Of a stretch of 64,000 nucleotides of DNA, positions 3,260 to 62,527 are shown piece after piece. The notes below the pieces were generated by a model that saw only the letters and a program-made list of their open reading frames with translations, did not search any database and was not told the DNA's origin. A program made the translations under genes and the position numbers. Source of the stretch: Gammaproteobacteria bacterium (GTDB lineage Bacteria > Pseudomonadota > Gammaproteobacteria > GRL18); the NCBI GenBank assembly GCA_016744375.1, contig JADGEM010000009.1:1-64000 (forward strand). The letters are read 5' to 3'. Each line of letters begins with the position of its first letter. Position 1 is the first letter of the stretch.

Positions 3260-4237
3260 ATGTCATTGTCGATTGTATACAGTCGTGCCGGTGGATTGGA
3301 TGCGCCTCTGGTGACAGTTGAAGTTCTGTTAACCAATGGATTGCCCAGTTTGAATATTGTCGGTCTTCCCGAAACTGCAGTTAAGGAAAGTAAAGATCGA
3401 GTCAGGGGGGCAATAATCAATAGTCATTTTGAATTCCCTGTCCGGCGGATTACAATTAATCTGGCACCAGCGGACTTACCCAAGGAAGGTGGCCGTTTTG
3501 ATCTAGCGATTGCAATGGGCATACTTCTTTCTTCCAGACAGCTGGAATTCTCAAAAAACGATAGGTCTGCTGTGCTAGGGCCTACAAAATCAGACACTTC
3601 ATACAATGACTACAGAAACCCCGTTGAACAATTTGAGTTTGTTGGTGAGCTGGCACTTAGTGGCGAACTGAGAGCGGTTGATGGCATTCTTCCCATTGCC
3701 ATTGCGGCAAACAAAAATAAGCGAATTCTCATTGTTCCGGAAGAAAATGGTCAGGAAGCTGCACTGATTAAAGGACTCACGGTGTATACAGCAAAACATT
3801 TGCTGGATGTCTGTGCTTTTTTGAAAGGTGAAATACAATTAAGTCAGCCTGAGATGAACACAAGAGCTGAGGGGAAATTTTATTCAACCTGCTTCTCTGA
3901 TATCTGTGGCCAGCATAGCGCCAAGCGAGCATTAGAAATAGCAGCAGCGGGCCAACATAGTTTGCTGATGAAAGGACCTCCGGGAACAGGTAAGACCATG
4001 CTTGCAAGTCGTCTGGTGACAATCTTACCCAACATGTCTGATACAGAAGCGGAAGAAGTCGCTGCCATTCGTTCAGTTTGCGGTGAAAAAGTCAGTACTG
4101 ATAACTGGGCAGTACGTGCTTTTAGAGTGCCGCATCATACTGCTTCCGGTGTTGCTCTTGTTGGTGGAGGTAGTTATCCCAGACCGGGTGAAATTAGCCT
4201 GGCACATCATGGTGTGTTATTTATGGATGAGTTGCCC
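3260..4237 (+). pseudogene. comM: 5' part of interrupted comM/yifB (Mg-chelatase-like AAA+ ATPase)
   Basis: These 326 codons encode the N-terminal ChlI-type domain (SLSIVYSRA start, LPKEGGRFDLAIA) and the first half of the AAA+ domain. Walker A (GPPGTGKT) is near residue 239 and Walker B (LFMDE) at about 320-324. The reading frame then enters foreign DNA and stops four bases later, giving FL-stop instead of the expected EF. The remainder of the gene is at 28820-29410. ComM is a hexameric branch-migration helicase that promotes integration of incoming DNA during natural transformation. A truncated product ending at Walker B cannot be a working ATPase. The start is supported by an AAGGAA ribosome-binding site. 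Confidence 0.95.
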
Positions 4238-4239
4238 TT

Positions 4240-4251
4240 CCTCTAATGTTT
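4240..4251. repeat. left terminal inverted repeat of the comM island
   Basis: CCTCTAATGTTT begins two bases inside the left junction. Its 11 bases CTCTAATGTTT are an exact reverse complement of 28798-28808 at the right end. It is probably a recombinase-binding arm. Confidence 0.75.
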
Positions 4252-4585: not shown

Positions 4586-5728
4586 ATGAAGAAGGACAAT
4601 AAGGTAGTGACACTGCCTAACAGTCAAAAGACTGTTGCTTCTACTTGTGCGTCTGTTGATCAGATAGCCTTAAAACTCTATCAAGATATGCTTGATGGAT
4701 ATGAAAAATATCGTTTAGGCACAAAACGAAATACAGAGAAAACCGTGAGCAGTGATTTGAGTGTTGTCAAACAATTGTTTGCTCATTCTGGAAAGTTCCC
4801 CTGGGAGTGGAAACTGGGTGATTGGGATGATTGGAATACGGATCTTGTTTTTAACAAGGGGATCTCAGCAGGAACACAACGAAAATATCAGGGGATCATT
4901 CGCAAATTCCTTGAGTATTTGATCACTCGTGAAGTTTTTCAGCGCAGTGTTAAAAAACATTATAATGTAAAAATTACTCAGATCATTGATGAAGATGAAG
5001 CATTACATCATATTTATGAAAGTGAACAAAAAGAGCCTCTACCTGCTTTTACTGATGAGTTAGCCGATCAGTTATTTGATGCTTTGAAGCAAGAAATTAA
5101 AATTGAGTCTCAACACCCAACTAGAAAATTATTGAATCTACAACGTGATCTGGCTCTTTTCTATACAGTAAAAGCAACTGGTTTAAGAATTGGTTCTGCT
5201 CTTGCTCTGAATATATATTCTTTTAGTCCAAATCCACAGGCTCCCGAAATGGGTAAGTATGGAGCTTACGATACCATAGGCAAAGGAAGTAAAGGAAGCG
5301 GACCAAAACCTATTGGCTCATTGATTGATGATATTAAATTACCACCACTGCTTGAATGGTATATTAATGAGATCAGACCGTTGTATTTAAAAACAAACAA
5401 CCCTGATGAACAAGCCCTTTTTCTTTCAGAAAGAGGGATACGTTTTTCTTATCAATCAGCATGGGTTCGATTGCAAAAAATGCTGGAGAATGCAGGATTA
5501 TCTGGCATAAACCTTTGCCCACATAGTTTTAGACGTGGAAAAGCAACTGAAAGTGGTATGCGCTATGGTGTTGAGACAACACGAAGAATGTTAAATCATG
5601 TCTATGGTACAACCACCCAGGGGTATATGTCTGTTCCTGATGAGTTTTCTCAAGCCCAAATTTCTGATTCTATCAGAGAACAAATTAAGCGTTCAGATAA
5701 AATTAATTTAGACAAAGATAAGAAATAA
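4586..5728 (+). CDS. tyrosine recombinase (first of two in the comM island)
   Basis: The 380-aa protein is a complete tyrosine recombinase. An N-terminal SAM-like core-binding region spans about 25-135. The catalytic domain has Arg201 (TGLRIGS), His313 and Arg316 (CPHSFRRG), His338 (LNHVYG) and the nucleophile Tyr347 (TQGYMSV). A Lys in the GKGSKG stretch near 236 fits the beta-hairpin lysine. It should carry out strand exchange for excision and insertion at comM. It is the first gene of a four-gene module with the HTH protein (24 bases downstream), the zinc-ribbon recombinase and the GIY-YIG protein. Two recombinases plus a ~125-aa accessory protein recall the TnpA/TnpB/TnpC set of Tn554-type transposons in number and size; homology to that set is not demonstrated. 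Confidence 0.9.
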   Translation: MKKDNKVVTLPNSQKTVASTCASVDQIALKLYQDMLDGYEKYRLGTKRNTEKTVSSDLSVVKQLFAHSGKFPWEWKLGDWDDWNTDLVFNKGISAGTQRKYQGIIRKFLEYLITREVFQRSVKKHYNVKITQIIDEDEALHHIYESEQKEPLPAFTDELADQLFDALKQEIKIESQHPTRKLLNLQRDLALFYTVKATGLRIGSALALNIYSFSPNPQAPEMGKYGAYDTIGKGSKGSGPKPIGSLIDDIKLPPLLEWYINEIRPLYLKTNNPDEQALFLSERGIRFSYQSAWVRLQKMLENAGLSGINLCPHSFRRGKATESGMRYGVETTRRMLNHVYGTTTQGYMSVPDEFSQAQISDSIREQIKRSDKINLDKDKK

Positions 5729-5752
5729 ATTTACATTTTAAGGAGATGATCC

Positions 5753-6142
5753 ATGAGTGATAATGATGAAGATTTAGTACAGATAGAATGGCGATTGTTA
5801 AATGTGATGGCAGAACGTCGGATCAGAACGGTTACTGCATTACGAAAAAAACTAATTGATCTGAATGTTGATATTTCAAGTCAGCAAGCGGGTCGTTTAG
5901 TCAATCAGTTTCCAGACCGATTAAATACAAAATATCTGCGAGGCTTATTAACGGCTTTGGATTGTGATATCTCAGATTTAATCCGTGTTCATCCTCCTGG
6001 CGACAATGTTGGAATTAAAGATGAGAATCAGGTTCATCCCGTTAAAACTGAAAAACCAAAAACAGTTAAGAAAAAAGTGAAAGCCAAGAAAAAGACTTCA
6101 GCTACCGTGACTAATATTCTACCTCCAGGGTTTGATGAATGA
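5753..6142 (+). CDS. XRE-type HTH protein of the recombination module
   Basis: The 129-aa protein has one helix-turn-helix domain of Cro/C1 type at about residues 15-77 (LLNVMAERRIRTVTALRKKL through ALDCDISDLIRV), then a lysine-rich tail (KKKVKAKKK). It has a good ribosome-binding site (AAGGAG) and overlaps the next gene by 4 bases (ATGA). Its place between two recombinases suggests a directionality or DNA-bending factor, or a regulator of the module. Its length is close to TnpC of Tn554, but I cannot claim relationship. Its DNA target is unknown; the repeats at the island ends are obvious candidates. Confidence 0.7.
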   Translation: MSDNDEDLVQIEWRLLNVMAERRIRTVTALRKKLIDLNVDISSQQAGRLVNQFPDRLNTKYLRGLLTALDCDISDLIRVHPPGDNVGIKDENQVHPVKTEKPKTVKKKVKAKKKTSATVTNILPPGFDE

Positions 6143-7956
6143 CACAAAGTACGACAACACATAAAAAATGTGATGGTTGCCAGCGAACAATGAAGAAAGC
6201 GACGGCAAAGCATGGTGACCTATCATTTTGTGCAACTTGTTATAAGCGTGAGTTTAAACGGGTTGAATGTGCTGGTTGTGGCAAAGCCACTTATACATAC
6301 CATGGGCATGAGCCTGCCTATTGTAAAACTTGTCGTATTAAAGGTCGAAAATGTGCAGGGTGTGATAAGCCGTTACCAAGAGCTTCTAAAATTATTAATG
6401 ATGAGGCATTTTGTTGGCCATGTGCTTCAAAATTACAGGAGCCAGAACCTTGTGCATTATGTGGTCAAATGTCATTGCGTTTATCCAGAGCACCTGAAGT
6501 AGGCATTGATGAGAGGATCTGCCAGAAATGCCGGACGAAAAGAACACATTTCACTTGTACCAATTGTGGAAAACACAGAAAACCGTCAGGCATTGATTCA
6601 AAAGGACAGGTTGTTTGTAAAACCTGTCTGGAAGATGAAAATTATCGGTGTCCTAAATGTGGTGAGCCAGGCAAACGTCACTCAAAAACACGTTGTCAGG
6701 CTTGCTACTGGAAAGATCATGCACAGGAGGTCATAGCTCAAGGGGTTGCTACATTATCAAGACCATGGGTAAGACATGCCTATCGTGCTTTTGGTGAATC
6801 ATTGATAGTATCCTATGGCAGTCAGAAGGCCAGTCATCGGGTACCAAAATATCTGGCATTTTTTGTCAGTCTTGATGTGCGATTTAAAAGAGCGGCATCA
6901 ATAACGGCCAGAATATTAATAAAAACCTTTGGAGCAGAAGGCTTGCGACGAAACACTGTTGCAGTGGCTTTTCTGACAAAGGATGGTATTTTGCCAGATT
7001 ATTGTCAAACAGAGTTGGAACATTATAATGAAATTGCACGACAAGAACGCTTAGTTGAGCAATCTATGGATGCTTGGTACGGTGAATTCTTATCTGGATT
7101 TTGGGATCATGCCCTGCATCTTCAGCAAACTTCATTGGACCGTGGAAATAAAGGGCCAAAATCACGCACAGTTTATTCTTGGTTAACAGCTGCTCGTGCT
7201 TTTCTGGAATTTGTAACAGGAAAAGGGATCAGTGCTCTTTCACAAATTGAAACACATCACCTTGATCTCTTTATAGATGATCAAGGTGGCTATGAGGCTT
7301 CAATACGTCGTTTTATTCGTTATTTAAATAAAAATGGAAAATTATTCCGTACTATAAAAATGGAATCAGTGGTGACTCAGAATATTGCTCATTTATTATT
7401 GCCTCAGTCTCGGGTTGATGAATTAATTGCACGTTTCCTTTCACCTGAGACTTCTGCTAAAGAAGCAATTTATGGTGTGTTAATGGTACTTTATGCACAA
7501 ACTGCCAGTCGGATCTGTGAATTAAGAATGGATCAATTAGGTCGAAATAAAAATGGTTTTCGTACCATTCATTTTTATCGGATGGATGTCGAGATACCGC
7601 CAGAAATTGAGCCTGTAATTACTCGATGGTTAAGTGAAAGAAAGTCATTATCAGTACTGGAATCAGAGCATAATAATAAATATCTGTTCCCTGGAAGAAG
7701 ACCAGGAGGGCATATATCTTCACCGTCTGTGAAATATTATTATGATCAGTGGGAAGTAACCGCAGATCAATTATTGGCATCCTCAATTTTTCAAATGTAT
7801 TGTAATGGGGTTCGTCATCCTAATGTGCCACATAATGCTTTTGGTGTATCCAAAGCCATGACAGGCAAATATATTGGAATTTTTGATGCCCACTATCATG
7901 ATGCTTTAGATCATTTTCGTGAAGAAGAGAAAAAGGCTGCTGATGCAAAAAACTGA
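6139..7956 (+). CDS. tyrosine-recombinase-like protein with twelve CxxC motifs
   Basis: The 605-aa protein has two parts. Residues 11-189 contain twelve CxxC pairs (C11/C14, C31/C34, C44/C47 and so on to C186/C189), enough for six zinc ribbons or treble clefs. Residues 300-595 resemble a tyrosine recombinase: a core-binding region near 340-400, Arg458 in TASRICEL, an Arg559-His560 pair in GVRHPN, and a candidate nucleophile Tyr586 in AHYHDAL. The catalytic motifs are looser than in the first recombinase, so it may be a partner subunit or have altered chemistry. The zinc array probably binds DNA or the partner protein. It is translationally coupled to the HTH protein upstream and overlaps the GIY-YIG gene. 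Confidence 0.75.
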   Translation: MTQSTTTHKKCDGCQRTMKKATAKHGDLSFCATCYKREFKRVECAGCGKATYTYHGHEPAYCKTCRIKGRKCAGCDKPLPRASKIINDEAFCWPCASKLQEPEPCALCGQMSLRLSRAPEVGIDERICQKCRTKRTHFTCTNCGKHRKPSGIDSKGQVVCKTCLEDENYRCPKCGEPGKRHSKTRCQACYWKDHAQEVIAQGVATLSRPWVRHAYRAFGESLIVSYGSQKASHRVPKYLAFFVSLDVRFKRAASITARILIKTFGAEGLRRNTVAVAFLTKDGILPDYCQTELEHYNEIARQERLVEQSMDAWYGEFLSGFWDHALHLQQTSLDRGNKGPKSRTVYSWLTAARAFLEFVTGKGISALSQIETHHLDLFIDDQGGYEASIRRFIRYLNKNGKLFRTIKMESVVTQNIAHLLLPQSRVDELIARFLSPETSAKEAIYGVLMVLYAQTASRICELRMDQLGRNKNGFRTIHFYRMDVEIPPEIEPVITRWLSERKSLSVLESEHNNKYLFPGRRPGGHISSPSVKYYYDQWEVTADQLLASSIFQMYCNGVRHPNVPHNAFGVSKAMTGKYIGIFDAHYHDALDHFREEEKKAADAKN

Positions 7957-8218
7957 TGATAGATGGTGGCTTTATTTATTAGAATGTTCTGGTGGATTGA
8001 CTTATGTTGGAACAGCGGCAGATGTAGAAACACGCTTTAAAAAGCACTTATCAGGTAAAGGGGCTCGTTTTACAAAAATTAATAAGCCTTTATCTATTAT
8101 AGCCGCTGAACCTTATGCTAATCGTAGTGAAGCTTGTAAAGCTGAGTATGCCTTAAAACGGAAAACACTTAAGAAAAAGATGGAATGGGCTGATAAATGG
8201 CCTTGGTCCAGAGACTGA
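7943..8218 (+). CDS. GIY-YIG nuclease domain protein (YhbQ-like)
   Basis: I chose the ATG at 7943, inside the end of the previous gene, giving 91 aa. A GTG at 7919 would add eight residues. The sequence matches a single-domain GIY-YIG protein: LYLLE for GIY, TYVG for YIG, the catalytic-type Arg in ETRFKKH, and a C-terminal Glu in the AEYALKRKT region. Such small proteins (UPF0213/YhbQ) are usually chromosomal and of unclear function. Here it is the last gene of the recombination module, which suggests a role in processing the element's DNA. Functional assignment is tentative; family assignment is fairly secure. Confidence 0.75.
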   Translation: MQKTDDRWWLYLLECSGGLTYVGTAADVETRFKKHLSGKGARFTKINKPLSIIAAEPYANRSEACKAEYALKRKTLKKKMEWADKWPWSRD

Positions 8219-8240
8219 ACATACTTTATAGGATTTTAAT

Positions 8241-9593
8241 ATGAGAATAGTAACACCTCCCTTGATTGTTGAAGAAAATGATGGATTCATTAATGATATT
8301 TTAGAACGAAAAGCTTATGGGGAAGCTTTATTGAACCTTGTCGTTAATTCGAGTGATGATTTGGTTGTTTCTCTAGATGGAAAATGGGGTGAAGGTAAAA
8401 CCACCTTTATCAAAATGTGGCAAGGTCTTTTGTTAGAGGATAATATTCCGAATATTTATATTGATGCTTTTGAAAATGATTATATCGATGATGCATTTAT
8501 ATCGGTAGTCAGTTCAATTACTCGATATGCCGAGACTAATATCAGTGATGAAAATCAAGATAAAATAATAGAATTAAAAGAAAAAAGTAAGATGGTGGGC
8601 GGACAACTTCTTTCCTGGACAGCAAAGGTTGGTTTAAAAGCGGCTACTTTAGGTGTAATAAAAGATTCTGAAATTGAAGAATTAATGGATATCAAAGGTG
8701 ATTTAGCAAAAGGTGTATCTGATTTAGCTGGAGGCTTTATTGAAGAGAGGATAAATTCACACACTAATGACATTGAACTTATTCAGTCTTTTAAGGAGTT
8801 ATTATCCAAACTTCCAGAAAGACTACAGAGTGGAGAAGGAAAGCCGTTAATTATTATTATCGATGAACTAGATCGATGCAAACCATCTTATGCTGTAGAA
8901 GTGGTTGAAAAAATTAAACATCTATTTTCTGTAAAAAACATTGTGTTTATTTTGGTGATGAATAAATTACAACTGGAAGAATCCATTAAAAGTGTGTATG
9001 GAAAGAATATAGATGCACACACATACCTTCAAAAATTTATTCATTTAGAAATGAAATTGCCTAAGCGGACTGGTAGACGCCATGAAAATGACATAACCTC
9101 TTATTCAAGAAAGTTGTTCGAGTTGCATGAAATTGAAGCATGGGGCGAAGGACAGTATATTATTGATAGTATAGATGCCCTTGCAAACCATCTGAACTTA
9201 TCACTCAGACAGCTTGAAAAAGTATACACTAATATCGCTCTGTTTTATGGCTCAAGTAGTAAAAATCAATTTAGATTAGCACCAATTGTTAGCTTTCTTT
9301 CTGTGGTAAAAGTAATTAATTCTGAGTTGTTTGAAGAACTATTGTATCAAACAATAATCTATCCAAATGTTGAAAAAGCATTTAATTATAATGTGACCAC
9401 TAATAACAGTGACTTAATGTATAAAATAATGAACTGGGTTAGGTTTGGCCTGATGAATGATGAAGAGTATAGAGAACTATCTGAAGAAGATGAAATTAAA
9501 CGCTATAACTCAGCACTTTTTCAATACAATATAGATCGAGAAGAAATCATCCCTTTTTTAGCAAAAAAAATAAACATGTTTATAACTGGGTAG
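8241..9593 (+). CDS. KAP family P-loop NTPase
   Basis: The 450-aa protein belongs to the KAP ATPases: Walker A GKWGEGKTT at residues 47-55 and Walker B IIIIDELDRC with Asp208. A region at about 110-180 contains hydrophobic stretches (GLKAATLGVI, VSDLAGGF) that may be membrane-associated, as in many KAP proteins. Bacterial KAP NTPases are often carried by mobile elements, and at least one (PifA of plasmid F) is linked to phage exclusion. It lies 22 bases after the GIY-YIG gene and converges with the restriction operon. A single-gene defence role is plausible but not shown by sequence. Confidence 0.8.
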   Translation: MRIVTPPLIVEENDGFINDILERKAYGEALLNLVVNSSDDLVVSLDGKWGEGKTTFIKMWQGLLLEDNIPNIYIDAFENDYIDDAFISVVSSITRYAETNISDENQDKIIELKEKSKMVGGQLLSWTAKVGLKAATLGVIKDSEIEELMDIKGDLAKGVSDLAGGFIEERINSHTNDIELIQSFKELLSKLPERLQSGEGKPLIIIIDELDRCKPSYAVEVVEKIKHLFSVKNIVFILVMNKLQLEESIKSVYGKNIDAHTYLQKFIHLEMKLPKRTGRRHENDITSYSRKLFELHEIEAWGEGQYIIDSIDALANHLNLSLRQLEKVYTNIALFYGSSSKNQFRLAPIVSFLSVVKVINSELFEELLYQTIIYPNVEKAFNYNVTTNNSDLMYKIMNWVRFGLMNDEEYRELSEEDEIKRYNSALFQYNIDREEIIPFLAKKINMFITG

Positions 9594-17744: not shown

Positions 17745-17759
17745 TCTTAGGTGAAGGGT

Positions 17760-18440
17760 ATGGGACGTGAAGGCATCACTTATGAACAGGTTGTTGAAGT
17801 GGCAATTAAACTGAGTAATGAATCTGAAAAGCCAACAATAAGGCGTGTAAGATCTGAGCTCGGTGATACTGGCTCCATGGGAACGATACAGTCATTTTTA
17901 GCTAGGTGGCGAGAAGAAAATCAAACTCATGTCTTGGCTAATTCAGAAATTGCTCCAGAAATACAAATAGCTCTATCCAGTGCTATTAATGCTAATATTA
18001 AGAAAGTTACCCTTAACCTTGAATCTGCAATATCAATTGCTAATGAAGAAATATCAGTTTTTCGAGATGAAAATTTTGTAATTGAAGAAAAACTAGATAA
18101 TGAAAGAAAGAAAAACAAAAAGCTGATACAAGAGCATGACAAACTAAGTGGAAAACTTGAAAAATCAATTGAGGATTATTCTGCATTAGTGCTTGAAAAA
18201 GAAAAAGAACGAAAAGATTCTGAAAGATCACGCACTGAATTGGCTAAAATCCAGGTGAAAATGGATAGCTTTAAAGAAAAAGTAGACGAGCTACGCCAAC
18301 AGAATGAAATGCTTCTGAATAAGTTTGAAGTATCACAAGTTGAAGCAATAAATAATGATAAAAGAGCGACTTTAGCTGAAGCTAAAATAGAAAGTAAAGA
18401 TCAGCAGATTATGTATCTTGAGAAACAGTTAAATAAATAA
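17760..18440 (+). CDS. KfrA-like DNA-binding coiled-coil protein
   Basis: I chose the ATG at 17760, with AGGTG 6 bases upstream; a GTG at 17751 would add three residues. The first 60 residues match the KfrA N-terminal DNA-binding domain: GITYEQVVEVAIKL, PTIRRVRSELG, then GSMGTIQSFLARW. The rest (about 90-226) is a long charged coiled coil. KfrA proteins of plasmids are autorepressors whose coiled coil mediates self-association and supports maintenance. Here it probably controls its own promoter and perhaps the methyltransferase-ATPase-HEPN genes that follow on the same strand. Confidence 0.8.
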   Translation: MGREGITYEQVVEVAIKLSNESEKPTIRRVRSELGDTGSMGTIQSFLARWREENQTHVLANSEIAPEIQIALSSAINANIKKVTLNLESAISIANEEISVFRDENFVIEEKLDNERKKNKKLIQEHDKLSGKLEKSIEDYSALVLEKEKERKDSERSRTELAKIQVKMDSFKEKVDELRQQNEMLLNKFEVSQVEAINNDKRATLAEAKIESKDQQIMYLEKQLNK

Positions 18441-18506: not shown

Positions 18507-19736
18507 ATGTTAAAAACTCAAACACAAGCACTTGGCCAATATTACACGGCATCACAATTTGGACACTTGTTGGTTAATTCATTGGAAGTCCAATCACCAG
18601 ATACAATTCTTGAGTTAGGAGCTGGGGAAGGATCATTGCTAACAGCGGCCCAAAATAGGTGGGATCAAGCAAAGATAATATCAGTGGACATTGATCATAA
18701 AAACCATGAGTTAATTAATGGCATCCTTCCTGGACACAGTCATTTTTTATTAAACGCTTTAGATAAAAATTTATCTAAAAGCATTGGTGTTCAAAGTGAT
18801 AGTGTTGATGTCGCTGTATGCAATCCACCATATATAAAATCAAAATGGAAGTCTTCCTTCTCTGAATTATTGGAAGAAGCGGGATTATCAAATTGTTTGT
18901 CAGTACATTCTGATTTTTCCACTGACATTTTATTTTTGGCTCAAAACATACGTTTATTACGAAAAGGTGGAGAGCTAGGGATAATTGTTCCTGATGGATT
19001 AGTTGCTGCGTCTAAAGCTTCTAGGCTACGAGAGCAATTAATAAAAAACCATATGCTCTCAGGAGTAATTCAATTACCAACAAAAATTTTTCAGAAAACT
19101 GAAGCTAAAACATATGTTCTTATTTTAAAAAAAGATATGACTTCAGATGGATTTATTCCCTTATATAAAGCATCAAAAGAAGGTGTCATTGGTGACCCAA
19201 TATTTATTTTTACGGAGCAGGCAGTAAATAGGCTTGATTATGATCATTATTTTTATAGCAAGGCCATAAAAATTGATACTGCAAGAGTATCTTCACATAA
19301 GCAAAGCTTTAGTCAAGAAAAACCTTTATTTGAAATAGCACGTGGGAATATAACAAAAGTTGATGCACAAAAGAATAACATCGATTTTTTTCATACAACT
19401 GATTTTAAATATGTAAAAAATATTAATAGTTGTCACTTATCAGATAAAACCAAAAAAATATTTAATAAAAATAACCACATTGTAGCAGAAAAAGGTGATA
19501 TTTTACTTGCACGTGTTGGACGTGATTTGGATAAGAAAATGGCTTTAGTAACTGCTGGACAAATTATTCTGTCAGACTGTGTGTATAGAATTAGACCTCA
19601 AACACCAGAAATAAGAAAGAGACTCTGGAGCTTTATATCCAGTAAAGACGGTCGTTTATGGATAAAAGCTCATAGTAAGGGGGTTTGTGCTCAATCAATT
19701 AATAAGAGCGATTTGGTGAAATTACCTATTTTATGA
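18507..19736 (+). CDS. DNA N6-adenine methyltransferase with target-recognition-like tail
   Basis: The 409-aa protein has motif X (GQYYT, residues 10-14), the SAM-binding motif ILELGAGEG (34-42) and the catalytic NPPY (106-109), as in gamma-class adenine methyltransferases. After about residue 270 it has an HsdS-like recognition segment (IARGNITKVD, DILLARVGRDL, INKSDLVKLPIL). One polypeptide could therefore both recognise and methylate a site. No nuclease domain is fused. It lies 10 bases before the ATPase gene and is the likely self-marking component of a three-gene system. No good ribosome-binding site precedes the ATG. Confidence 0.85.
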   Translation: MLKTQTQALGQYYTASQFGHLLVNSLEVQSPDTILELGAGEGSLLTAAQNRWDQAKIISVDIDHKNHELINGILPGHSHFLLNALDKNLSKSIGVQSDSVDVAVCNPPYIKSKWKSSFSELLEEAGLSNCLSVHSDFSTDILFLAQNIRLLRKGGELGIIVPDGLVAASKASRLREQLIKNHMLSGVIQLPTKIFQKTEAKTYVLILKKDMTSDGFIPLYKASKEGVIGDPIFIFTEQAVNRLDYDHYFYSKAIKIDTARVSSHKQSFSQEKPLFEIARGNITKVDAQKNNIDFFHTTDFKYVKNINSCHLSDKTKKIFNKNNHIVAEKGDILLARVGRDLDKKMALVTAGQIILSDCVYRIRPQTPEIRKRLWSFISSKDGRLWIKAHSKGVCAQSINKSDLVKLPIL

Positions 19737-19746
19737 AGAAAAATAT

Positions 19747-21441
19747 ATGACTGATGTAATCCAAGATGGTTTTGAAGAACGCGCAGATCATTTAGAGTTA
19801 AATGAGCTTGAAGACATAACTGTAGAAGCTGACTTCTTTAAAAGGATAATGGACAAACTTTTAATTCGTGGTGCTAAACTAATCGTTGGTCCTCGTGGTA
19901 CTGGTAAAACGCACCAAATGCGCTACACCTATATACATTGTCTTAAAGATAAAAAAAAACCAATAGCGATTTATGTGTCATTTACGAAATATTATCATCT
20001 TGAACCATTATTGCATAAAGCACCGAATGCATTAAGGCTTTTTCATACATGGGTTTTATGCAAAATTTTACAGAGCTGTTACGACGTACTTGAAATTCAA
20101 AAACTAGAATCAGATGAATTTTTAGAAGAGTTCTCAAATTTTAGTATATTAGAGTTAGAACAATATATTTCTCAAATTGAAAAAGGAAGCATTCTAGCTT
20201 CTCAAAATAAACTTATTGAGGATTTAACTCTTAGGACCATTACAAATGCAATTGAAAGGCTAATTGAACTAACGAAACGGAAACGAGCAGTACTTTTTTT
20301 TGATGATGCCGCATTGACATTAACACCTGATTATATGATTGAGTTTTTTGATGTCTTTAAAGCTCTAAAATCATCATCTATTTCACCTAAGGCATCTGTA
20401 TATCCTGGCACAACACAGTATGGACCACGTTTTAATGCAAGGCATGATGCTGAGTTAGTAAATGCTTGGCTTAGTGTTGATGATCCTATGTATAGTGAAA
20501 TTATGGGTGAAGTAGCAATTAAACGAATAAATAATTTAGAAAATGTTTCAGCAGACATAATTGAGCTTTTTAAGTATGCTTCGTTTGGAGTTCCTAGAGT
20601 ACTCATGACGATGTTGCGTGATTACGAGCAGTCACCAAAGAAAACAGCCCAACAGAAGGTTAACTATATAATTCAATCGCAACATACTCTTCTTATTGAG
20701 GAATATCGAGCTCTTTCTCTTAAACTACCTCAATTTAAAACAATTATTGAAACTGGTCTTGATTTTTATACTAAAATAATAAAAGACATATCAAAAGAAA
20801 ATAAAGGTTTAATCAATGACAGAATAAATCAAATAAGAATAGGCATACAGCACTCGGAACAAAATCTTTTTGTTGACCGAATGATAAAGCTCTTAATTGA
20901 AGTTGGTTTGCTACATTATATTGAATCTGTTTCACATGGTGAGGATCGAGATTATGATCGATTTATGCCACATCTATCTTCACTCATTAATAACAAAGCA
21001 TTCTCAACAGGAAGAGGGTTTTCTGCACAAAAAATAGTTGAGGCTATAACTTTTAAATCTTCAAAACATCCATTACGAAGAAAAATTGAAACATTGCTAG
21101 ATAAAGATGTTTTGAAAAATCTTAAACTAGACCTTCCTTTATGCCAGTCATGCCAAACTCCAAGATTAACAGAGTCACAAAAATTCTGTCATAGCTGTGG
21201 TAAGCCACTAGTAGAACAGTCAACATTTGAAAGTTGCATGGAAATACAGATAGAAGCCTTACCTTTAACACAATGGCAAAAAGATAGGGTTAGTAAAGAA
21301 ACAAATATCTCTAAAGTGAAGGATTTCTTTACTTTACAAGATCCAGGTTCAGAGTTAAGAAAAGCTTATGGAATTGGAAAAATTAAATCTAAGAAAATAC
21401 ATGATATTGTTTTGCAAGAAGTAGAAGAATTTCTGTCATGA
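19747..21441 (+). CDS. AAA-type ATPase with zinc ribbon and HhH-like C-terminus
   Basis: The 564-aa protein has Walker A VGPRGTGKT (residues 47-55) and a hydrophobic Walker B ending in Asp186-Asp187 (VLFFDDA). The arrangement resembles ORC/Cdc6-like or STAND-type P-loop ATPases. A zinc ribbon follows (C466/C469 and C481/C484), and the last 35 residues look like a helix-hairpin-helix (YGIGKIKSKKI). The latter two would suit nucleic-acid binding. It overlaps the HEPN gene by 4 bases and follows the methyltransferase by 10. I infer a sensor or switch that controls the HEPN protein according to DNA modification state. The family has no name that I recognise. Confidence 0.7.
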   Translation: MTDVIQDGFEERADHLELNELEDITVEADFFKRIMDKLLIRGAKLIVGPRGTGKTHQMRYTYIHCLKDKKKPIAIYVSFTKYYHLEPLLHKAPNALRLFHTWVLCKILQSCYDVLEIQKLESDEFLEEFSNFSILELEQYISQIEKGSILASQNKLIEDLTLRTITNAIERLIELTKRKRAVLFFDDAALTLTPDYMIEFFDVFKALKSSSISPKASVYPGTTQYGPRFNARHDAELVNAWLSVDDPMYSEIMGEVAIKRINNLENVSADIIELFKYASFGVPRVLMTMLRDYEQSPKKTAQQKVNYIIQSQHTLLIEEYRALSLKLPQFKTIIETGLDFYTKIIKDISKENKGLINDRINQIRIGIQHSEQNLFVDRMIKLLIEVGLLHYIESVSHGEDRDYDRFMPHLSSLINNKAFSTGRGFSAQKIVEAITFKSSKHPLRRKIETLLDKDVLKNLKLDLPLCQSCQTPRLTESQKFCHSCGKPLVEQSTFESCMEIQIEALPLTQWQKDRVSKETNISKVKDFFTLQDPGSELRKAYGIGKIKSKKIHDIVLQEVEEFLS

Positions 21442-22265
21442 AACGAAATAAAAAAGAATTCTCCTGCCAGATTACAGATGTAAGTGCTGTAAAGTCTCTG
21501 GAAACTAGTTGTTTATTTGATAAGTCATATATTGTTAGCAAAAATTCTCCAATTGATCAGTTTATAATAGAAACTACTGAATTAGCAAAGTTAATTCCCC
21601 AACCAGATAAACCAAATGCACGACTTGCCAATTTAATTTTGCTTGGAGGTGTATCAGCTGTAGAAAGCTATTTTAGGAGTATAATTCGTAGAACGATTTG
21701 TATTGATAAAATATCAAAAAAAACAGTTGAGAAATGTACTCTTTCATATGGTGCTGCCATCCATCATAAAGAAGAAATGTTACCAGAAGCACTTTTAGAG
21801 ACAACATCTTTTGTAAGCAGATATACTGTTAGAGAAGCTTTAAAAAATTTTCTTGGCATTGAAAAACAACTTCCAAATGAAGTTAGCGAAGTATTGGGTG
21901 AATATGTAAAAGTGTGCCAATTAAGGCATTGTGTTGTTCATCGATTTGGTAAATTAGGATCAAATAATGCTATTGATCTGGATTTGGATAGCCATAAAGA
22001 ACTACTAGAAAAACCATTGAAGCTAGATTTTAATTCCCTTCAAGAAATATTTTTAACTTTAAGCTTGACAGTAAAAACAACAAATAATTTTATATTTAGA
22101 AAATTATTAACTCGGACTTCAGAAAATGACTCATGGGAATGGGATCTTAGAAAAGATAAAAAACAATTTTCAAATTATTATGATACTTTTTCAAGTCAAC
22201 TTGATACACCTCCTTCAAAATCAATGAATGAAATATACCAAGAATTTAAAAATACATTTAAATAA
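21438..22265 (+). CDS. HEPN-like protein, candidate RNase effector
   Basis: The 275-aa protein is all-helical in appearance. It has an Rx4H motif typical of HEPN ribonucleases (Arg163-His168 in LRHCVVH) and a helix with a conserved-type Glu (SAVESYFR, Glu76) upstream, as in RiboL-PSP/MAE_28990-like HEPN families. HEPN RNases are common effectors in abortive-infection and toxin-antitoxin systems. The gene overlaps the ATPase stop by 4 bases, so the two products are probably made in a fixed ratio and may form a complex. RNase activity is inferred from a single motif. Confidence 0.65.
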   Translation: MKRNKKEFSCQITDVSAVKSLETSCLFDKSYIVSKNSPIDQFIIETTELAKLIPQPDKPNARLANLILLGGVSAVESYFRSIIRRTICIDKISKKTVEKCTLSYGAAIHHKEEMLPEALLETTSFVSRYTVREALKNFLGIEKQLPNEVSEVLGEYVKVCQLRHCVVHRFGKLGSNNAIDLDLDSHKELLEKPLKLDFNSLQEIFLTLSLTVKTTNNFIFRKLLTRTSENDSWEWDLRKDKKQFSNYYDTFSSQLDTPPSKSMNEIYQEFKNTFK

Positions 22266-22301: not shown

Positions 22302-24776
22302 ATGAAAGTTATTAGTGAAACCCTGACAGGGATTGTTAGTAGAGTAACATATCACAATCAGAATACTGGATGGTCTGTATTACGTGTCCAGCCATTTAAT
22401 TCACCTCACCAACAAGAAACTGTTACAGTCCACCAGACCAAAGTGTTTGCCGGAGCCACAATAGAATTTCGTGGGTCTTGGACTATTGATCATAAATATG
22501 GCCGTCAATTTAAAGCAACTGAGGCCATTGAAAAAAAACCAGCCACAACCGCAGCGATTGAGAAATATCTTGGTTCTGGTCTGATAAAAGGAGTAGGTCC
22601 AAAAACAGCCAAGCGAATTGTTAAGCATTTTCAGAATGATACTTTGGATATTTTTGAAAATAATATTAACCGGCTCACTGAAGTGACTGGGATCGCAAAA
22701 AAGAAATTGACCATGATTGAGAAAGCCTGGGTAGAGCATCGGGCGATCAGGGATGTGATGATATTTCTGCAAGGGCATGGAATAAGCACTTTGTTTGCCG
22801 TTCGGATTTACAAAGAATATGGTGATAAATCAATATCAATGGTGACAGAAGACCCTTATCGCCTGGCCAATGATTTTTATGGTATTGGGTTCTTCTCAGC
22901 AGATAAAGTGGCTTTAAGCATTGGCCTGTCTGAAACCAGTCAGCAACGAATGGTTGCAGGAATTAAACATGTACTTGCTGCCAGTCGTGAACAGGGGCAT
23001 TGTTACCTGACTGAACAACAGATCAATACAGGTATATTTGATTTAATTGAAATGGATTTAGGTGAACGTCTTCATAGCTATCTTGATATCATGAAGCAGG
23101 ATGATCAACTCAGAACCCGACAACTGAAACAAGATAATACAGAATATACCTGTTATTACTCAAAAACTCTTTTCCATGATGAGGCAACGGTTGCTAAGAA
23201 ACTTCAGATAATGAAAGGTGATGTTTTAAGTGATCCACAACGGATTACCACCTGGGTAAGCCGATATTGTCAAAGTCAATCTATTTCATTGAGTGATGAG
23301 CAGGCGGATGGTGTAAAAGGTGTCGTACAGCATCGTTTTTCCATCCTGACTGGTGGCCCAGGTTGTGGCAAGACTACTACAACTCTTGTGATTGTTAGGC
23401 TTCTCGAAGCTATGAATAAAAAAGTATTGCTTGCAGCTCCGACTGGCCGTGCTACTCAGCGAATGAGTGAGGTCATTGGCAGAGAGGCTAAAACCATACA
23501 TCGGTTACTTGAATGGAAGGGAGGTGAATTCCAGAAAAATGAGGAAACACATCTTGTGGCTGATTTTCTGATAGTTGATGAATGTTCCATGCTGGATATT
23601 AGCTTAAGCGCCTCATTATTAAAAGCTGTTCCTCAAAACTGCCAAGTTCTATTTATCGGAGATCCCGATCAGTTACCATCTGTTGGCGCTGGTAATGTCA
23701 TTAAGGATATTATCTCTTCTGGTGTTATTCCTTGTTTTCGATTAACTCAGGTATTTCGTCAGGCTCAGGAATCTTTGATTATCAAATACGCTCACCAGAT
23801 CAATAAAGGACAAACTCCATATATTAATTCACCCTTTAAAAAACCAGCTATCTGGGAAAATGGCTCTGATTGCTTATTTATTGATTCAGATGAAGTGACA
23901 AAAGAGCAGATCACTTTTATTAATCGTGTAAAGCGTTACTTTGACTGGAAAACAACTGAACTTGAAATGATTGCATCTGGTGATGAATCACCATTTGAGT
24001 TTAGAATACAGGAAGAAATTAAGTCAGCCTACGAACAGGATTTTGTGGTGCCAGACAAATTTAAGCATGTTGATTTAGAGAAATTACATAAAACAGAGGC
24101 TCAGATTGATGCGCTAAAATCAGTTCTGAAGAATATTCATCCTTGGTCATCACTGCACTATGGATTGTCTGCCATAGATACTGTGGTAAAACTTTATTTA
24201 GATTGGATCCCCAAATATCATGGCAGTAATACTGAAATTCAGATCCTAACACCCATGACACGAGGAAGTCTGGGTACTGCCAATCTTAATAAGGTCATCC
24301 AGCAAGTTGCAAATCCACCAGAACAGGGAAAAAGTCAGCTTAAAGTAGGCGAGAGAATCTTCAGGGAAGGTGATAGAGTGATCCATCGTCGGAATAATTA
24401 TGATTTGAACGTATTTAATGGAGATATTGGCAAGATCGTTAATATTGATAATGAGACGTTGACAGCTATTATTTCTTTTTACCCAGACAACAGGGAAGTA
24501 AACTACAAAAAAGAAGATATTATGGAGTTGGATTTGGCTTATGCTATCACGATTCATAAATCACAGGGTTCTGAATTCAAAGCAGTAATTATTCCAGTAC
24601 TTACACAACATTTTAAAATGCTTTATCGCAACCTTGTTTATACAGGGCTAACCAGAGCAAAGGATTTAGCTGTTTTTGTAGGAACCAGAAAAGCACTTAC
24701 TATGGCAATTAAACAGCAAGATACAAGTCAGAGACAAACAGCTTTAGAAAAATTAATACAAAGTGATGAAAAATAA
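22302..24776 (+). CDS. recD2: RecD2-like SF1B DNA helicase
   Basis: The 824-aa protein has the RecD2 layout: an N-terminal OB-like region (TGIVSRVTYHNQNTGWSVLRV), helix-hairpin-helix repeats (GVGPKTAKRIV), and the SF1 helicase core with Walker A GGPGCGKT near residue 351 and Walker B VDECSML near 425. The C-terminal part has DLAYAITIHKSQGSEF and YTGLTRAK. It is longer than typical RecD2 proteins and has an extra segment of roughly 80-100 residues at about 530-620. RecD2 is a 5'-3' helicase not tied to RecBC. It starts 36 bases after the HEPN gene, so it may be transcribed with that set, but it could be an independent cargo gene. Confidence 0.9.
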   Translation: MKVISETLTGIVSRVTYHNQNTGWSVLRVQPFNSPHQQETVTVHQTKVFAGATIEFRGSWTIDHKYGRQFKATEAIEKKPATTAAIEKYLGSGLIKGVGPKTAKRIVKHFQNDTLDIFENNINRLTEVTGIAKKKLTMIEKAWVEHRAIRDVMIFLQGHGISTLFAVRIYKEYGDKSISMVTEDPYRLANDFYGIGFFSADKVALSIGLSETSQQRMVAGIKHVLAASREQGHCYLTEQQINTGIFDLIEMDLGERLHSYLDIMKQDDQLRTRQLKQDNTEYTCYYSKTLFHDEATVAKKLQIMKGDVLSDPQRITTWVSRYCQSQSISLSDEQADGVKGVVQHRFSILTGGPGCGKTTTTLVIVRLLEAMNKKVLLAAPTGRATQRMSEVIGREAKTIHRLLEWKGGEFQKNEETHLVADFLIVDECSMLDISLSASLLKAVPQNCQVLFIGDPDQLPSVGAGNVIKDIISSGVIPCFRLTQVFRQAQESLIIKYAHQINKGQTPYINSPFKKPAIWENGSDCLFIDSDEVTKEQITFINRVKRYFDWKTTELEMIASGDESPFEFRIQEEIKSAYEQDFVVPDKFKHVDLEKLHKTEAQIDALKSVLKNIHPWSSLHYGLSAIDTVVKLYLDWIPKYHGSNTEIQILTPMTRGSLGTANLNKVIQQVANPPEQGKSQLKVGERIFREGDRVIHRRNNYDLNVFNGDIGKIVNIDNETLTAIISFYPDNREVNYKKEDIMELDLAYAITIHKSQGSEFKAVIIPVLTQHFKMLYRNLVYTGLTRAKDLAVFVGTRKALTMAIKQQDTSQRQTALEKLIQSDEK

Positions 24777-24828
24777 TGGAAATCATCTATTTGGATGTTG
24801 GAAAACAGAAAAAAAGGAGTATGAATTA

Positions 24829-25614
24829 ATGTTTAGCCCAGAGTCATTAGCCAGAGCAAAAGCACTGGATAAACAGTTTAAACTGGAAGCAAAAGTTAGG
24901 AATAAAGACTCAAAATTAAGGACGAAACAGTCAACATTAAGGGATAAATATGATCTTTCTTTTTTTATAGAAAAAGATTATCCACGACTCATGAAAATCT
25001 TACAATGTGTAGATAATGGAAAGCGTCTTGCTGAAAGTGAAGTTGCTTGGCTTCATCTTGATGGTGACGAATACTTCACTGAAAAACTTAAAATCAGATA
25101 TCATAATAATGAAGCCGAATTCTATGTTTCTGAGTTCAAAAAAAGAAATGATCCTTGGTTGGCCGTAAATGCTAGCAGTCATTATCGTAAATGTGGAAAA
25201 TCACAGGTTGCAGATGTAATGTTGAGTGACATAAGCCTGTCTAACTTAAAAAATACAAAATTGAAATCAGCAATTTATACAACACAAGGAGGTGTAAAGA
25301 GGGACTTGAAAAAATTTGATGATGCTTTAATTCTGGGAGAAAAAGCACATAATATAACAAAGAAAGATTTTCGCCCTTGCACACTTCTCGGTGCTGTTCA
25401 TATGGAAACAGGGGATTACGAGCTAGGTCAAAAATGGTATGCACTAGCTATTAAAAATGGATTTAGTGAAAGAGCAATGGATTCAGAATTAAGAAGCATC
25501 TTTATGCGTGCCAAAAAATCAGATAAAGAAGCTTTACGTGTTCACTTACTTAAAATTGATCCTAAGCGTTATAGCTGGGCAAAACATAAGATTGGAAGCG
25601 GTAAAAAAAGATAA
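24829..25614 (+). CDS. helical-repeat (TPR-like) protein downstream of recD2
   Basis: I chose the ATG at 24829, in frame and 9 bases after an AAGGAG site; this gives 261 aa. An upstream GTG at 24763 or ATG at 24766 would add 21-22 residues and overlap recD2. The first third is charged and helical. Residues from about 100 on look like paired helices of a TPR-type solenoid (ALILGEKAHNITKKDFRPCTLLGAVHMETGDYELG has the TPR spacing of small and aromatic residues, spanning two units). I infer a protein-protein adaptor for RecD2, based only on adjacency. Confidence 0.6.
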   Translation: MFSPESLARAKALDKQFKLEAKVRNKDSKLRTKQSTLRDKYDLSFFIEKDYPRLMKILQCVDNGKRLAESEVAWLHLDGDEYFTEKLKIRYHNNEAEFYVSEFKKRNDPWLAVNASSHYRKCGKSQVADVMLSDISLSNLKNTKLKSAIYTTQGGVKRDLKKFDDALILGEKAHNITKKDFRPCTLLGAVHMETGDYELGQKWYALAIKNGFSERAMDSELRSIFMRAKKSDKEALRVHLLKIDPKRYSWAKHKIGSGKKR

Positions 25615-28779: not shown

Positions 28780-28808
28780 AACATTAGAGGTTTCTATAAA
28801 CATTAGAG
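28780..28808. repeat. right terminal repeats of the comM island
   Basis: Two copies of AACATTAGAG lie 18 bases apart: 28780-28789 (followed by G) and 28799-28808, extended by one A at 28798. They are inverted relative to the two copies at the left end (4240-4251 and 4391-4401). The outer copy ends 11 bases before comM sequence resumes. Confidence 0.75.
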
Positions 28809-28819
28809 ATTCCCAGTAT

Positions 28820-29410
28820 GAATTTTCTCAAAAAGTATTAGAAGTATTAAGGGAACCGTTGGAGTCAGGGAGCATTGCCATCTCACGAGCGGCAAAAAAA
28901 GCAGAATTCCCTGCGAAGTTCCAGCTTATTGCTGCTATGAATCCATGTCCGTGTGGTTATTGGGGAGACATCCAAAATAATTGCCGCTGTACCAGTGAGC
29001 AGGTTCAACGATATCAAAACAAGCTGTCAGGCCCATTCCTGGATCGAATTGATATGCATATTGAAGTGCCAGCGCTCTCACATCAGGATCTGCAGGAGAG
29101 CAGTGATTTAATTGAACGTAGTATTGAAGTAAAAAAAAGAGTTATTAATGCTCAAAAGAAACAAAAATCAAGGCGAAACCATTGCAATGCGCATCTGAGT
29201 AATAAAGAGATTGAAGCAGATTGTTATTTGTCGGATGATAACCAGAAGGTTTTGGAGAAAACAATGAATAAAATGAAATTGTCTGCCAGAGCCTATCATC
29301 GTATATTAAAACTTGCACGCACCATTGCCGATTTGGATAATAGTGAAATGATTCAGCTTCACCATTTAACAGAGTCAATCGGGTATCGAAAAATTGATCA
29401 CTTTCAATAA
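28820..29410 (+). pseudogene. comM: 3' part of interrupted comM/yifB
   Basis: The sequence resumes exactly where the 5' part stopped: EFSQKVLEVLREPLESG follows DELP, and the frame is open to the stop codon at 29408-29410 (196 codons). It contains the second half of the AAA+ domain (AAMNPCPCGYWGD, sensor-type LSGPFLDRIDMHIEV) and the C-terminal Mg-chelatase-like domain (LSARAYHRILKLARTIAD). A TTG at 28859 could start translation but would lack Walker A and B. Intact sequence on both sides suggests recent interruption. Confidence 0.95.
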
Positions 29411-61252: not shown

Positions 61253-61329
61253 GGGCCTGTAGCTCAGTTGGTTAGAGCATCCGACTCATAATCGGCAGGT
61301 CGACAGTTCGAGTCTGTCCAGGCCCACCA
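61253..61329 (+). tRNA. tRNA with CAU anticodon (Met, or Ile2)
   Basis: The 77-base gene includes encoded CCA. Acceptor GGGCCTG/CAGGCCC, D-loop AGCTCAGTTGGTTAGAGC, anticodon stem CCGA/TCGG with loop CTCATAA (anticodon CAT at 61287-61289) and T-arm GTTCGAGTC are all present. The CAU anticodon and lack of initiator features leave elongator Met or lysidine-modified Ile2. In E. coli the gene near rpoD is ileX (Ile2), and the CCGACTCATAATCGG arm resembles it, so Ile2 deserves checking. Confidence 0.95.
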
Positions 61330-61438
61330 TAATTGTTAAGATAAACAACGACTTACTCAATCAAGGTTTATCAGTCTTACTTAAAATTCATTAAATAGGT
61401 GCATTTAGGTGCAGCTCGAAATTTTAAGGAGAGACAAC

Positions 61439-62527
61439 ATGGCTTCTATTCAAAAGATTAGTCGTGCAAAAGGTGCAGTTTATAAAGTTACCATTCGACA
61501 GACTGGTAACGGCACTATCTGTAAAACATTCCCCACTAAGAAAATGGCGGTTGAATTCGCTCGTAAAGTGGAAGGCAATGATGAACTTGCCTTGGCTTTA
61601 GGCAATCCCATTGCAATGAAACTCAACCTATCTGATATTATCACTGAATACCTTGAACTTTATACAGGCAAAGACCATGGTCTTTATGGTTGCTTGGCTT
61701 GGTGGTCTAAGCAATATGGTCATCTTCCTCTTAATAAAATAAATGCAGTTACAATTCGTGAAGGTATTAAACTCTTAAGTAATGGTAATACACTTCGTGG
61801 TAATGGTTTGGGCCAAACCAAAGAAATGAATCGTAAGCGTTCAGGCTCAACAGTGAATCGCTATAAGGACAATCTATCAAGTGTATTTGAATTTTCAAAA
61901 GAGGAATATGGATTAACAGAAAACCCTTGTCGTGATGTTAAATCAAAACCAGAAGGTAAAGGAAGGACTAGATTTTTGACCGATGACGAACGTTCAAGGC
62001 TTCTCATCGCTTGTAGGGAATCAAAATGGGATATGCTCTATTTGCTTGTTCTGATGGCTCTTACAACCGGAGCTAGGAAGAGTGAGCTACTTGGACTTAG
62101 TTACCAGGATATTGATATTAACAATGGTTATGCACATTTATGGGAAACTAAAAATGGTGAACAGAGATTACTACCTTTAACTGATGAGGTGAGCGGCCTG
62201 ATATTTCCACAGGTAGCAGAATCTTATAATATTATTAATACCAATACGCATAAAGGATTAATATTTCCTTCGGAACAAAAACCACAACAAGGTTTTGAAT
62301 TCAGAAAACATTGGGTAGAAGCTTTAAAAAAAGCTGAAATTAAGGGCTTTAGATTTCATGATCTCCGACATTCAGCAGCCTCGTATCTGGCAAAGAATGG
62401 GGCCTCCCTCAAAGAAATCGCTGATGTTTTGGGGCATAAAGATCTTCAGTCCACTAATAGATATAGTCATTTATGTATTGGATATAAAAAGAAGTTGATC
62501 AGTCGGGTTATGGGTGGGATTGTTTGA
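61439..62527 (+). CDS. tRNA-associated tyrosine integrase
   Basis: I chose the ATG at 61439, with AAGGAG 7 bases upstream (362 aa); a GTG at 61409 would add ten residues. It is a phage-type integrase with an N-terminal arm-binding domain, core-binding domain (about 70-170), and a catalytic domain with Arg in TTGARKSEL, HDLRHSAASY, LGHKDLQST and nucleophile Tyr in NRYSHL. It is not closely similar to the recombinases of the comM island. The likely target is the adjacent tRNA 3' end. Confidence 0.93.
   Translation: MASIQKISRAKGAVYKVTIRQTGNGTICKTFPTKKMAVEFARKVEGNDELALALGNPIAMKLNLSDIITEYLELYTGKDHGLYGCLAWWSKQYGHLPLNKINAVTIREGIKLLSNGNTLRGNGLGQTKEMNRKRSGSTVNRYKDNLSSVFEFSKEEYGLTENPCRDVKSKPEGKGRTRFLTDDERSRLLIACRESKWDMLYLLVLMALTTGARKSELLGLSYQDIDINNGYAHLWETKNGEQRLLPLTDEVSGLIFPQVAESYNIINTNTHKGLIFPSEQKPQQGFEFRKHWVEALKKAEIKGFRFHDLRHSAASYLAKNGASLKEIADVLGHKDLQSTNRYSHLCIGYKKKLISRVMGGIV

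Follow-up and report, generated by a model that had tools for sequence, protein, structure and literature searches.

Two kinds of described bacterial system stand closest to the three-gene locus considered here (18507-22265, forward strand, in a 64,000-nucleotide stretch of gammaproteobacterial DNA from contig JADGEM010000009.1, below called the window), namely PrrC and RloC, the former linked to EcoprrI, and BREX-related (BR) Type-1, also called Hma. PrrC and RloC, as passages of the HEPN survey of Anantharaman et al. (2013; PMC3710099) describe them, are fusions of an ABC-ATPase with a HEPN ribonuclease (RNase) and sit beside full restriction-modification (R-M) systems. For BR Type-1, passages of the 2026 survey of BREX (PMC12839542) and of the 2013 survey give an ORC-type DUF499 (BrxC-like) ATPase fused to HEPN, together with an N6 methylase, a helicase and usually a PD-(D/E)XK nuclease, and those of the former put the number of taxa with the HEPN RNase fused to the ATPase at 1370 of 2446.

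The trio in the window encodes a predicted N6-adenine DNA methyltransferase, an ORC/Cdc6-like AAA+ ATPase and a HEPN-type probable endoribonuclease. It shares with BR/Hma the N6 methylase and the ORC/Cdc6-type ATPase, and with PrrC and RloC the linkage of a HEPN RNase and an ATPase to DNA modification. Unlike BR/Hma, it encodes HEPN in a gene of its own, lacks a conserved helicase or DNase, and has an ATPase of the Pfam family PF24389 with a zinc ribbon and a helix-hairpin-helix (HhH) tail; unlike PrrC and RloC, it consists of separate genes, with an AAA+ ATPase and no restriction subunit. HEPN proteins beside modification systems are already known; the trio differs from them in the PF24389 ATPase, the separate HEPN gene and the lack of a conserved helicase or DNase. 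It recurs as a unit across diverse bacteria and prophages, is mobile, and looks like an anti-virus system that is apparently uncatalogued.

Results

A recurrent set of three genes

The three open reading frames lie head to tail on the forward strand at 18507-19736 (409 amino acids), 19747-21441 (564 amino acids) and 21438-22265 (275 amino acids), with a gap of 10 bases between methylase and ATPase and an overlap of 4 bases between the ATPase stop and the HEPN start. An earlier note, made from the window alone, had read them as three tightly coupled genes with just these spacings, encoding a methylase with NPPY at 106-109 and a recognition-like tail, a P-loop ATPase with zinc ribbon and HhH, and a HEPN protein, in an island beside a type I restriction system and a KAP NTPase, and had not recognised the trio as a named system. 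Apart from the HEPN assignment, which stood in part and is taken up below, these claims are borne out by the features described in the following sections, and the co-occurrence that the note had proposed to look for in other genomes is found: the same three genes recur, mostly in the same order, at loci fetched from elsewhere.

The loci opened around bait matches carry L numbers, L001 being that of the window. With the HEPN protein as bait, 47 loci were found in genomes, 45 of them with the ATPase and 35 with the methylase. The two without ATPase, L033 and L054, begin at a contig end, and L018 holds only a piece of the ATPase; the methylase is missing from 12 (L018, L033, L044, L045 and L047-L054). 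On viral contigs the same bait gave all three genes in seven cases out of seven. When the ATPase was used as bait on viral contigs, a gene matching the HEPN profile followed the ATPase directly in all 16 (seven of them the contigs of the HEPN-baited scan), and the methylase was present in 11. Among 16 plasmid records matched by the HEPN bait, the full set occurs in three (Cupriavidus necator and two Rhizobium, one of the latter with a broken methylase) and a pair without methylase in one, from Limimaricola; the other 12 match in part only, 11 being from Piscirickettsia (one opened, decayed) and one a decayed Vibrio copy.

The ends of the ATPase and HEPN genes are at most 11 bases apart in 56 of 74 rows, with a gap of -4 in 22 and of -1 in 10, counts in which gene starts were chosen mechanically and seven contigs enter twice. 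The position of the methylase varies more: it follows the HEPN gene in L008 and lies on the other strand in L023 and L091. Decayed copies also occur, with the ATPase or HEPN gene broken in L006, L007, L011, L038 and L046.

The HEPN-type protein

The third protein very probably belongs to the HEPN superfamily. As defined in passages of the 2013 survey (PMC3710099), HEPN proteins have a four-helix core with an insert between helices 2 and 3, an acidic Ex3[KR] motif in helix 2, and a motif Rx4-6H that ends helix 3 and in which the residue after R is usually polar (N, D or H). The Arg163-x4-His168 named in the earlier note is present as RHCVVH at residues 163-168 (21924..21941), that is R163-H164-x3-H168, with a polar residue after R. 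In an AlphaFold2 model with a predicted local distance difference test score (pLDDT) of 95.6, the main helices span residues 38-50, 61-89, 147-169 and 198-230, with short helices between the second and the third, E76-x3-R80 in the second and R163-H168 at the end of the third, in the helix order of the HEPN definition. E76 and R80 are invariant across the 41 rows of alignment A4, which holds the window and 40 of the 54 HEPN-bait loci (47 genome and seven viral), 14 having been omitted either as near copies of kept rows (L010, L016 and the viral L055-L057 and L059-L061) or as cut or broken (L033, L036, L038, L039, L046 and L054). All 16 HEPN proteins from the ATPase-baited viral scan, which is free of the bias of a bait containing the motif, have R-H-x3-H although the surrounding residues vary.

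The HEPN family nearest to the trio protein by profile is RiboL-PSP-HEPN (PF18735). In hhalign, the profile of the 41 relatives scored 26.1 (E 0.0054 for a single comparison) against nine RiboL-PSP-HEPN rows from genomes, with R and H in register; 150 column shuffles reached at most 21.8 (mean 12.2), so that none scored as high. The Limimaricola relative weakly reaches the RiboL-PSP-HEPN model, at 1.2e-3. Compared with that family, the trio proteins are longer, and the model has extra C-terminal helices.

Several results weigh against the assignment. PF18735 is reached weakly, below the Pfam cut-off, by two of the 41 relatives (best 5e-4); the hhalign probability of the above comparison is 6.7% only; a Foldseek search of the model against the PDB gave nothing at E<=0.001; and the invariance of RH..H in A4 is partly by construction, because the bait of the genome scan contained the motif. 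The window protein by itself has no match in Pfam (E 0.1) or in PADLOC, NCBIfam or PHROGs (E 0.01). The motif claimed in the earlier note stands, and the name HEPN comes from relatives, profiles and model and not from a Pfam match of the protein's own; the structure prediction that the note had proposed fits in helix order and has no significant counterpart in the PDB. Further searches gave no match of the HEPN profile to PDB chain sequences at E 1, no HEPN match in the phage collection, and in BFVD, with Foldseek, one uncharacterised siphovirus protein as the best match (1.0e-3). The Paenibacillus relative (L045, 7585-9087) has 500 amino acids, with a long C-terminal extension, and weakly matches the PADLOC model RTasHEPN (DRT) at 2e-4.

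The ORC/Cdc6-like ATPase

Membership of the second protein in the ORC/Cdc6-like AAA+ group is indicated by both sequence and fold. Its sole Pfam match above the respective cut-off is to PF24389, the ORC-CDC6-like family (33.8 bits, cut-off 27), which is found in 34 of 34 ATPase family members at 0.001. Of 44 Foldseek matches to its model (pLDDT 88.2) at 0.001, the first is an archaeal Orc1/Cdc6 on DNA (2qby_B, 2.1e-6), RdrA and TnsC standing lower in the list. Walker A is GPRGTGKT at residues 48-55 (19888..19911), GPRGxGK being present in 68 of 68 family ATPases longer than 500 amino acids; Walker B is LFFDDAA at residues 183-189 (20293..20313), with the DDAA box at 186-189 found in 67 of the 68. 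A zinc ribbon of the form CxxC...CxxC is made up of Cys466, Cys469, Cys481 and Cys484 (21142..21198), which are invariant in alignment A5 (34 rows, the window and 33 of the HEPN-bait loci), the corresponding regular expression matching 66 of the 68. The HhH tail occupies residues 505-564 (21259..21438); when 17 C-terminal ends were combined in a profile, it matched eL32 (6e-4), the C-terminal domain of RNA polymerase alpha (1.5e-3), ComEA, XPF and DisA. The Orc1/Cdc6-like model, the zinc ribbon and the HhH tail point to an ATPase that binds DNA.

The methyltransferase

The first protein combines an N6_Mtase domain (PF02384, 2.3e-24) with the catalytic motif NPPY at residues 106-109 (18822..18833), the combination expected of an N6-adenine DNA methyltransferase; among the 56 best methylase matches at the loci, 55 have NPP[YFW], and the remaining one, of L091, is broken. 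The protein matches the PADLOC type II model MTase_II PDLC03285 over its full length (9.2e-91), and the nearest solved sequence is a type I M subunit (3lkd_A, 5.4e-9). To its HsdM-like catalytic half is joined an HsdS-like C-terminal half: the MAD5/HsdS model NF047740 aligns to residues 247-408 (2.8e-7, under its cut-off), so that the enzyme appears to include a half recognition domain of its own. That half is the fastest-evolving part of the trio, with a mean identity of 0.35 over 37 rows, against 0.38 for the catalytic half, 0.39 for the HEPN protein and 0.43 for the ATPase.

Co-variation and gain of the methylase

Pairwise identities were compared by rank correlation in 36 dereplicated trios including that of the window, L004 having been dropped for its broken methylase. 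The ATPase and the HEPN protein form the tightest pair (0.63, none of 2000 permutations as high). Values for the methylase halves against either of the two range from 0.24 to 0.40, with zero or one of 2000 permutations as high; against the ATPase, the catalytic half gives 0.24 (one of 2000) and the recognition half 0.40 (none of 2000).

In an ATPase tree of 63 rows, 60 from the family and three from distant ATPases, one branch separates 45 methylase-bearing from 15 methylase-free rows (support 100/99; 100% of 200 bootstrap trees). Presence of the methylase thus maps as a single change, and none of 500 label shuffles was as low. This methylase is likewise absent from the loci of the distant ATPases, so that a single gain is the simplest account, the direction being less sure than the split itself because of the long outgroup branches. 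Probably the methylase was acquired once and has been retained since: it is whole in 42 of the 45 methylase-bearing rows, and copies with a broken ATPase (L011, L038 and L046) keep a largely open methylase frame. The methylase-free clade spans Bacillota, Actinomycetota, Acidobacteriota, Verrucomicrobiota and Pseudomonadota. A crude motif scan for other methylases found one in one of its 15 loci (L048, C5 type), some of these loci being short on the 5' side (L044 has 259 bases upstream); as a control, the same scan recovered the known methylase in seven of eight loci.

Mobility and the island in the window

The trio is carried by prophages, plasmids and, in the window, a genomic island. Phage genes flank the trio or pair at the three viral loci checked for them with PHROGs: integrase, terminase and portal genes in L057, an HNH endonuclease, endolysin and terminase in L093, and tape measure and endolysin in L101. 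Of 57 genomes searched with the ATPase profile, only the window's own matched, and none of its 56 relatives, 15 of them congeners; of 398 genomes of the phylum, eight matched at 1e-10, two with the full trio (G000 and G109) and the other six with distant ATPases that have another partner.

In the window, a comM-like gene, with the Pfam domains Mg_chelatase and ChlI, is split into an N-terminal part at 3260-4246 and a C-terminal part at about 28800-29410. The island of about 24.6 kb between these parts has a tyrosine integrase (4586-5728) after the first part, and contains the KAP NTPase (8241-9593, PF07693 3e-44), the type I system, a resolvase, the trio, a RecD2 gene and a GDSL lipase gene. 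The type I system (hsdM, hsdR and hsdS) lies 2 kb upstream of the trio, HsdR being in a separate operon on the opposite strand. No direct repeats of at least 10 bases were found at the comM junctions in the stretches compared.

Immediately upstream of the trio, a KfrA_N-like DNA-binding protein (17751..18440, forward strand, PF11740 2.8e-13) is a possible regulator and a doubtful member of the unit, with a homologue in only three of the 60 other loci (L010, L014 and L016). Downstream, RecD2 helicase (22302-24776) begins 36 bases past the trio and is followed by a TPR-like protein (24763-25614). Neither is retained as a member, since phmmer searches over L001-L061 detected the TPR-like protein nowhere and RecD2 only in the window's own locus, L001, and, as a weak match, in L020. 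A scan gave 30 promoter-like sites against 38.2 in shuffles, hence no excess; terminator-like sites were commoner than in shuffles (8 against 4.3, standard deviation 1.9), and none is used as support. Elsewhere in the window, at 61253-62527, a tRNA-Met precedes a gene that by eye resembles an integrase; past it the GC content drops to 0.31, possibly a second island. Beyond the window, at L109 (16065-19613; contig about 76064-79612), a gene pair that by eye is SIR2- and HerA-like is followed by a RiboL-PSP-HEPN gene (PF18735 4.6e-26), with a Vsr-like gene, also by eye, upstream at 8086-8547 of that locus.

Comparison with catalogued systems

No catalogue match above cut-off was obtained for the HEPN protein or the ATPase. 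PADLOC 2.0.0 (2023) has no match to the HEPN protein at 0.01, matches the ATPase only to mad8 (4e-4) and the methylase to generic methylase models; NCBIfam 20 (2026) has none to the HEPN protein and only weak, partial ones to the ATPase. A literature search yielded no description of the trio; subscription papers, supplements and preprints lay mostly outside it, so an unnamed or very recent mention is possible.

Identity with BR/Hma Type-1 is rejected, as the ATPase matches PF24389 and not DUF499, and RecD2 is not conserved beside other trios. The MADS system (mad1-mad8) is rejected too: the methylase weakly matches mad2/MAD2 and MAD5, and the ATPase mad8, but the scores are far below the cut-offs (MAD2 45.6 bits against 720, MAD5 29.8 against 400), and no strong match to other mad models was seen among the ten proteins scanned. 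BREX is set aside because no PglZ or BrxC match occurs among the neighbours scanned and the methylase matches PglX weakly (2.8e-8), and a type I R-M system because the methylase has no match to the N-terminal domain HsdM_N in Pfam and HsdR, in its own operon, is not found beside other trios. The ATPase domain weakly matches those of DS-41 (DefensePredictor) and the Sll1717 family (NF053860, 25.9/370 bits; NF047389, 30.5/75). Apart from this low score, the sole DS-41 ATPase in the 398 genomes (L108) has no HEPN protein or methylase of the trio's families alongside, and identity with DS-41 is rejected.

A sister operon and distant ATPases

The methylase family also occurs with another effector. 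A search of plasmids at 1e-20 gave 149 records, 130 of them from Klebsiella. Besides the trios, four of these records were opened, and two, from Cupriavidus and Klebsiella plasmids, show a four-gene operon of N6 methylase, PRTase-CE, ORC-CDC6-like ATPase and CARF-like protein (L106, 4857-9959; L103, 4956-10004). The other two methylase contexts, in Rhizobium (L104) and Bosea (L105), are neither trio nor PRTase operon. The operon methylases share 27.5-37% identity with that of the trio (P0001); the ATPase of L103 falls in PF24389, and that of L106 is its homologue (29%, 1e-87). In contrast to the trio, PRTase-CE and CARF-like proteins take the place of HEPN, and the ATPases have no CxxC pair and hence no zinc ribbon of this kind; the PADLOC models nearest to the PRTase protein are labelled PRTase_III-A. 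By its gene content the operon looks like a sister defence system in which, given the same methylase family and an ORC-CDC6-like ATPase, marker and switch would have been kept and the effector swapped.

Distant ATPases, members of the trio ATPase's superfamily, in L072-L076 (pairs at about 5100-7800) and L071 (5629-8060) adjoin a protein of about 250-265 amino acids, which in L072-L076 is one conserved family with LSKGxH. The partner in these five loci (A7) is not clearly related to HEPN, its score of 18.8 against the trio's HEPN profile being below the highest shuffle, 21.8, of the other comparison.

Discussion

The reading that we favour, at about even odds, is that of a mobile module against phages: methylation would mark self, the ATPase would sense unmodified DNA and the HEPN protein would cut RNA. 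The earlier note had assigned these roles, which are inferred; its interpretation is borne out in part, by the gene set, domain make-up, conserved motifs, recurrence, co-variation and mobility described above. In such a module, the methyltransferase would methylate host DNA at adenines of a recognition site of its own, and the ORC/Cdc6-type ATPase would load on DNA, probably as an oligomer, by way of its zinc ribbon, winged helix and HhH tail, while holding the HEPN protein in a common complex. DNA without the mark, such as incoming or replicating phage DNA, would then change the state of the ATPase and thereby switch on the HEPN protein, which would cut RNA, so that the infected cell would stop growing in an abortive infection. 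More specifically, and more tentatively, we consider it a reasonable possibility that the trio amounts to R-M without a DNA nuclease, in which methylation licenses self, the ORC-type ATPase, loaded on DNA, reads its absence and the HEPN protein directs restriction entirely at RNA, the methylase having been added once to an older ATPase-HEPN killer. The methylase kept throughout one clade, even where it has another place or strand, fits the prediction of self-protection. The largely open methylase frames beside broken ATPases and the fast evolution of the recognition half also count in favour of the defence module, and the sister operon gives it comparative support.

Some observations speak against this view. 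The methylase looks broken in three of the 45 methylase-bearing rows (L004 in three frames, L091 in two, L093 with one stop), in all of which the ATPase and HEPN frames are open, an arrangement that strict self-protection forbids; the broken methylases may be sequencing errors or real losses, and only the former would spare the model. L018 has no methylase match either, but its ATPase is a piece of 117 amino acids only. Furthermore, the 15 methylase-free ATPases among 60 form a sister clade, which shows that ATPase and HEPN protein can occur as a pair in the absence of this methylase, and that clade must need a different trigger; together with the broken methylases, this is the chief doubt.

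The same facts lend themselves to an alternative in which the ATPase-HEPN pair is the whole sensor and effector, responding to phage DNA structures or replication, and the methylase is an accessory gained once, for instance as a regulator or to protect the element from other systems. The methylase-free clade across five phyla, with another methylase near only one of its 15 members, the tighter co-variation of ATPase and HEPN protein with each other than of either with the methylase, and the three broken methylases all speak for it. Nevertheless, a whole clade is marked by the methylase even where its place or strand differs, and its recognition half co-varies with the ATPase, and we regard this alternative as rather unlikely. 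An arrangement of the PrrC kind, in which a complex of methylase and ATPase, or an R-M system nearby, would keep the HEPN protein silent until a phage anti-restriction protein disturbs that complex, has precedents in passages of the 2013 survey (PMC3710099), where PrrC and RloC are HEPN proteins with ATPases in R-M operons and R-M subunits are proposed to inhibit HEPN partners reversibly, and in the window the type I system is near at hand. We find such a guard improbable: when HsdR, HsdS and HsdM of the window were searched with phmmer (E 1e-4) against L002-L061, no type I system turned up beside the trios, HsdM weakly matching the trio methylase only, and the trio has no DNase for the HEPN protein to guard. 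The coupled ends of the ATPase and HEPN genes and their carriage on plasmids and in prophages would also suit a toxin-antitoxin or addiction cassette of mobile elements, in which the ATPase, with or without the methylase, restrains a HEPN toxin and defence is secondary or absent. However, an antitoxin would not need so large an AAA+ ATPase that binds DNA, nor a methylase that has a recognition domain, and the five decayed copies listed above show that loss of the unit is tolerated; we hold this cassette to be about as improbable as the guard.

If the module in which methylation licenses self is the true one, the marking of self and non-self DNA would be uncoupled from DNA cutting, the mark controlling instead an RNA-targeting suicide enzyme, and the three genes would represent, in very compact form, a theme so far remarked on as a secondary trait of the BREX-related and PrrC systems. 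What the methylase contributes can be tested directly with the methylase-free sister clade. The PRTase sister operon, whose methylase family is common on Klebsiella plasmids, points to a modular family that deserves to be catalogued.

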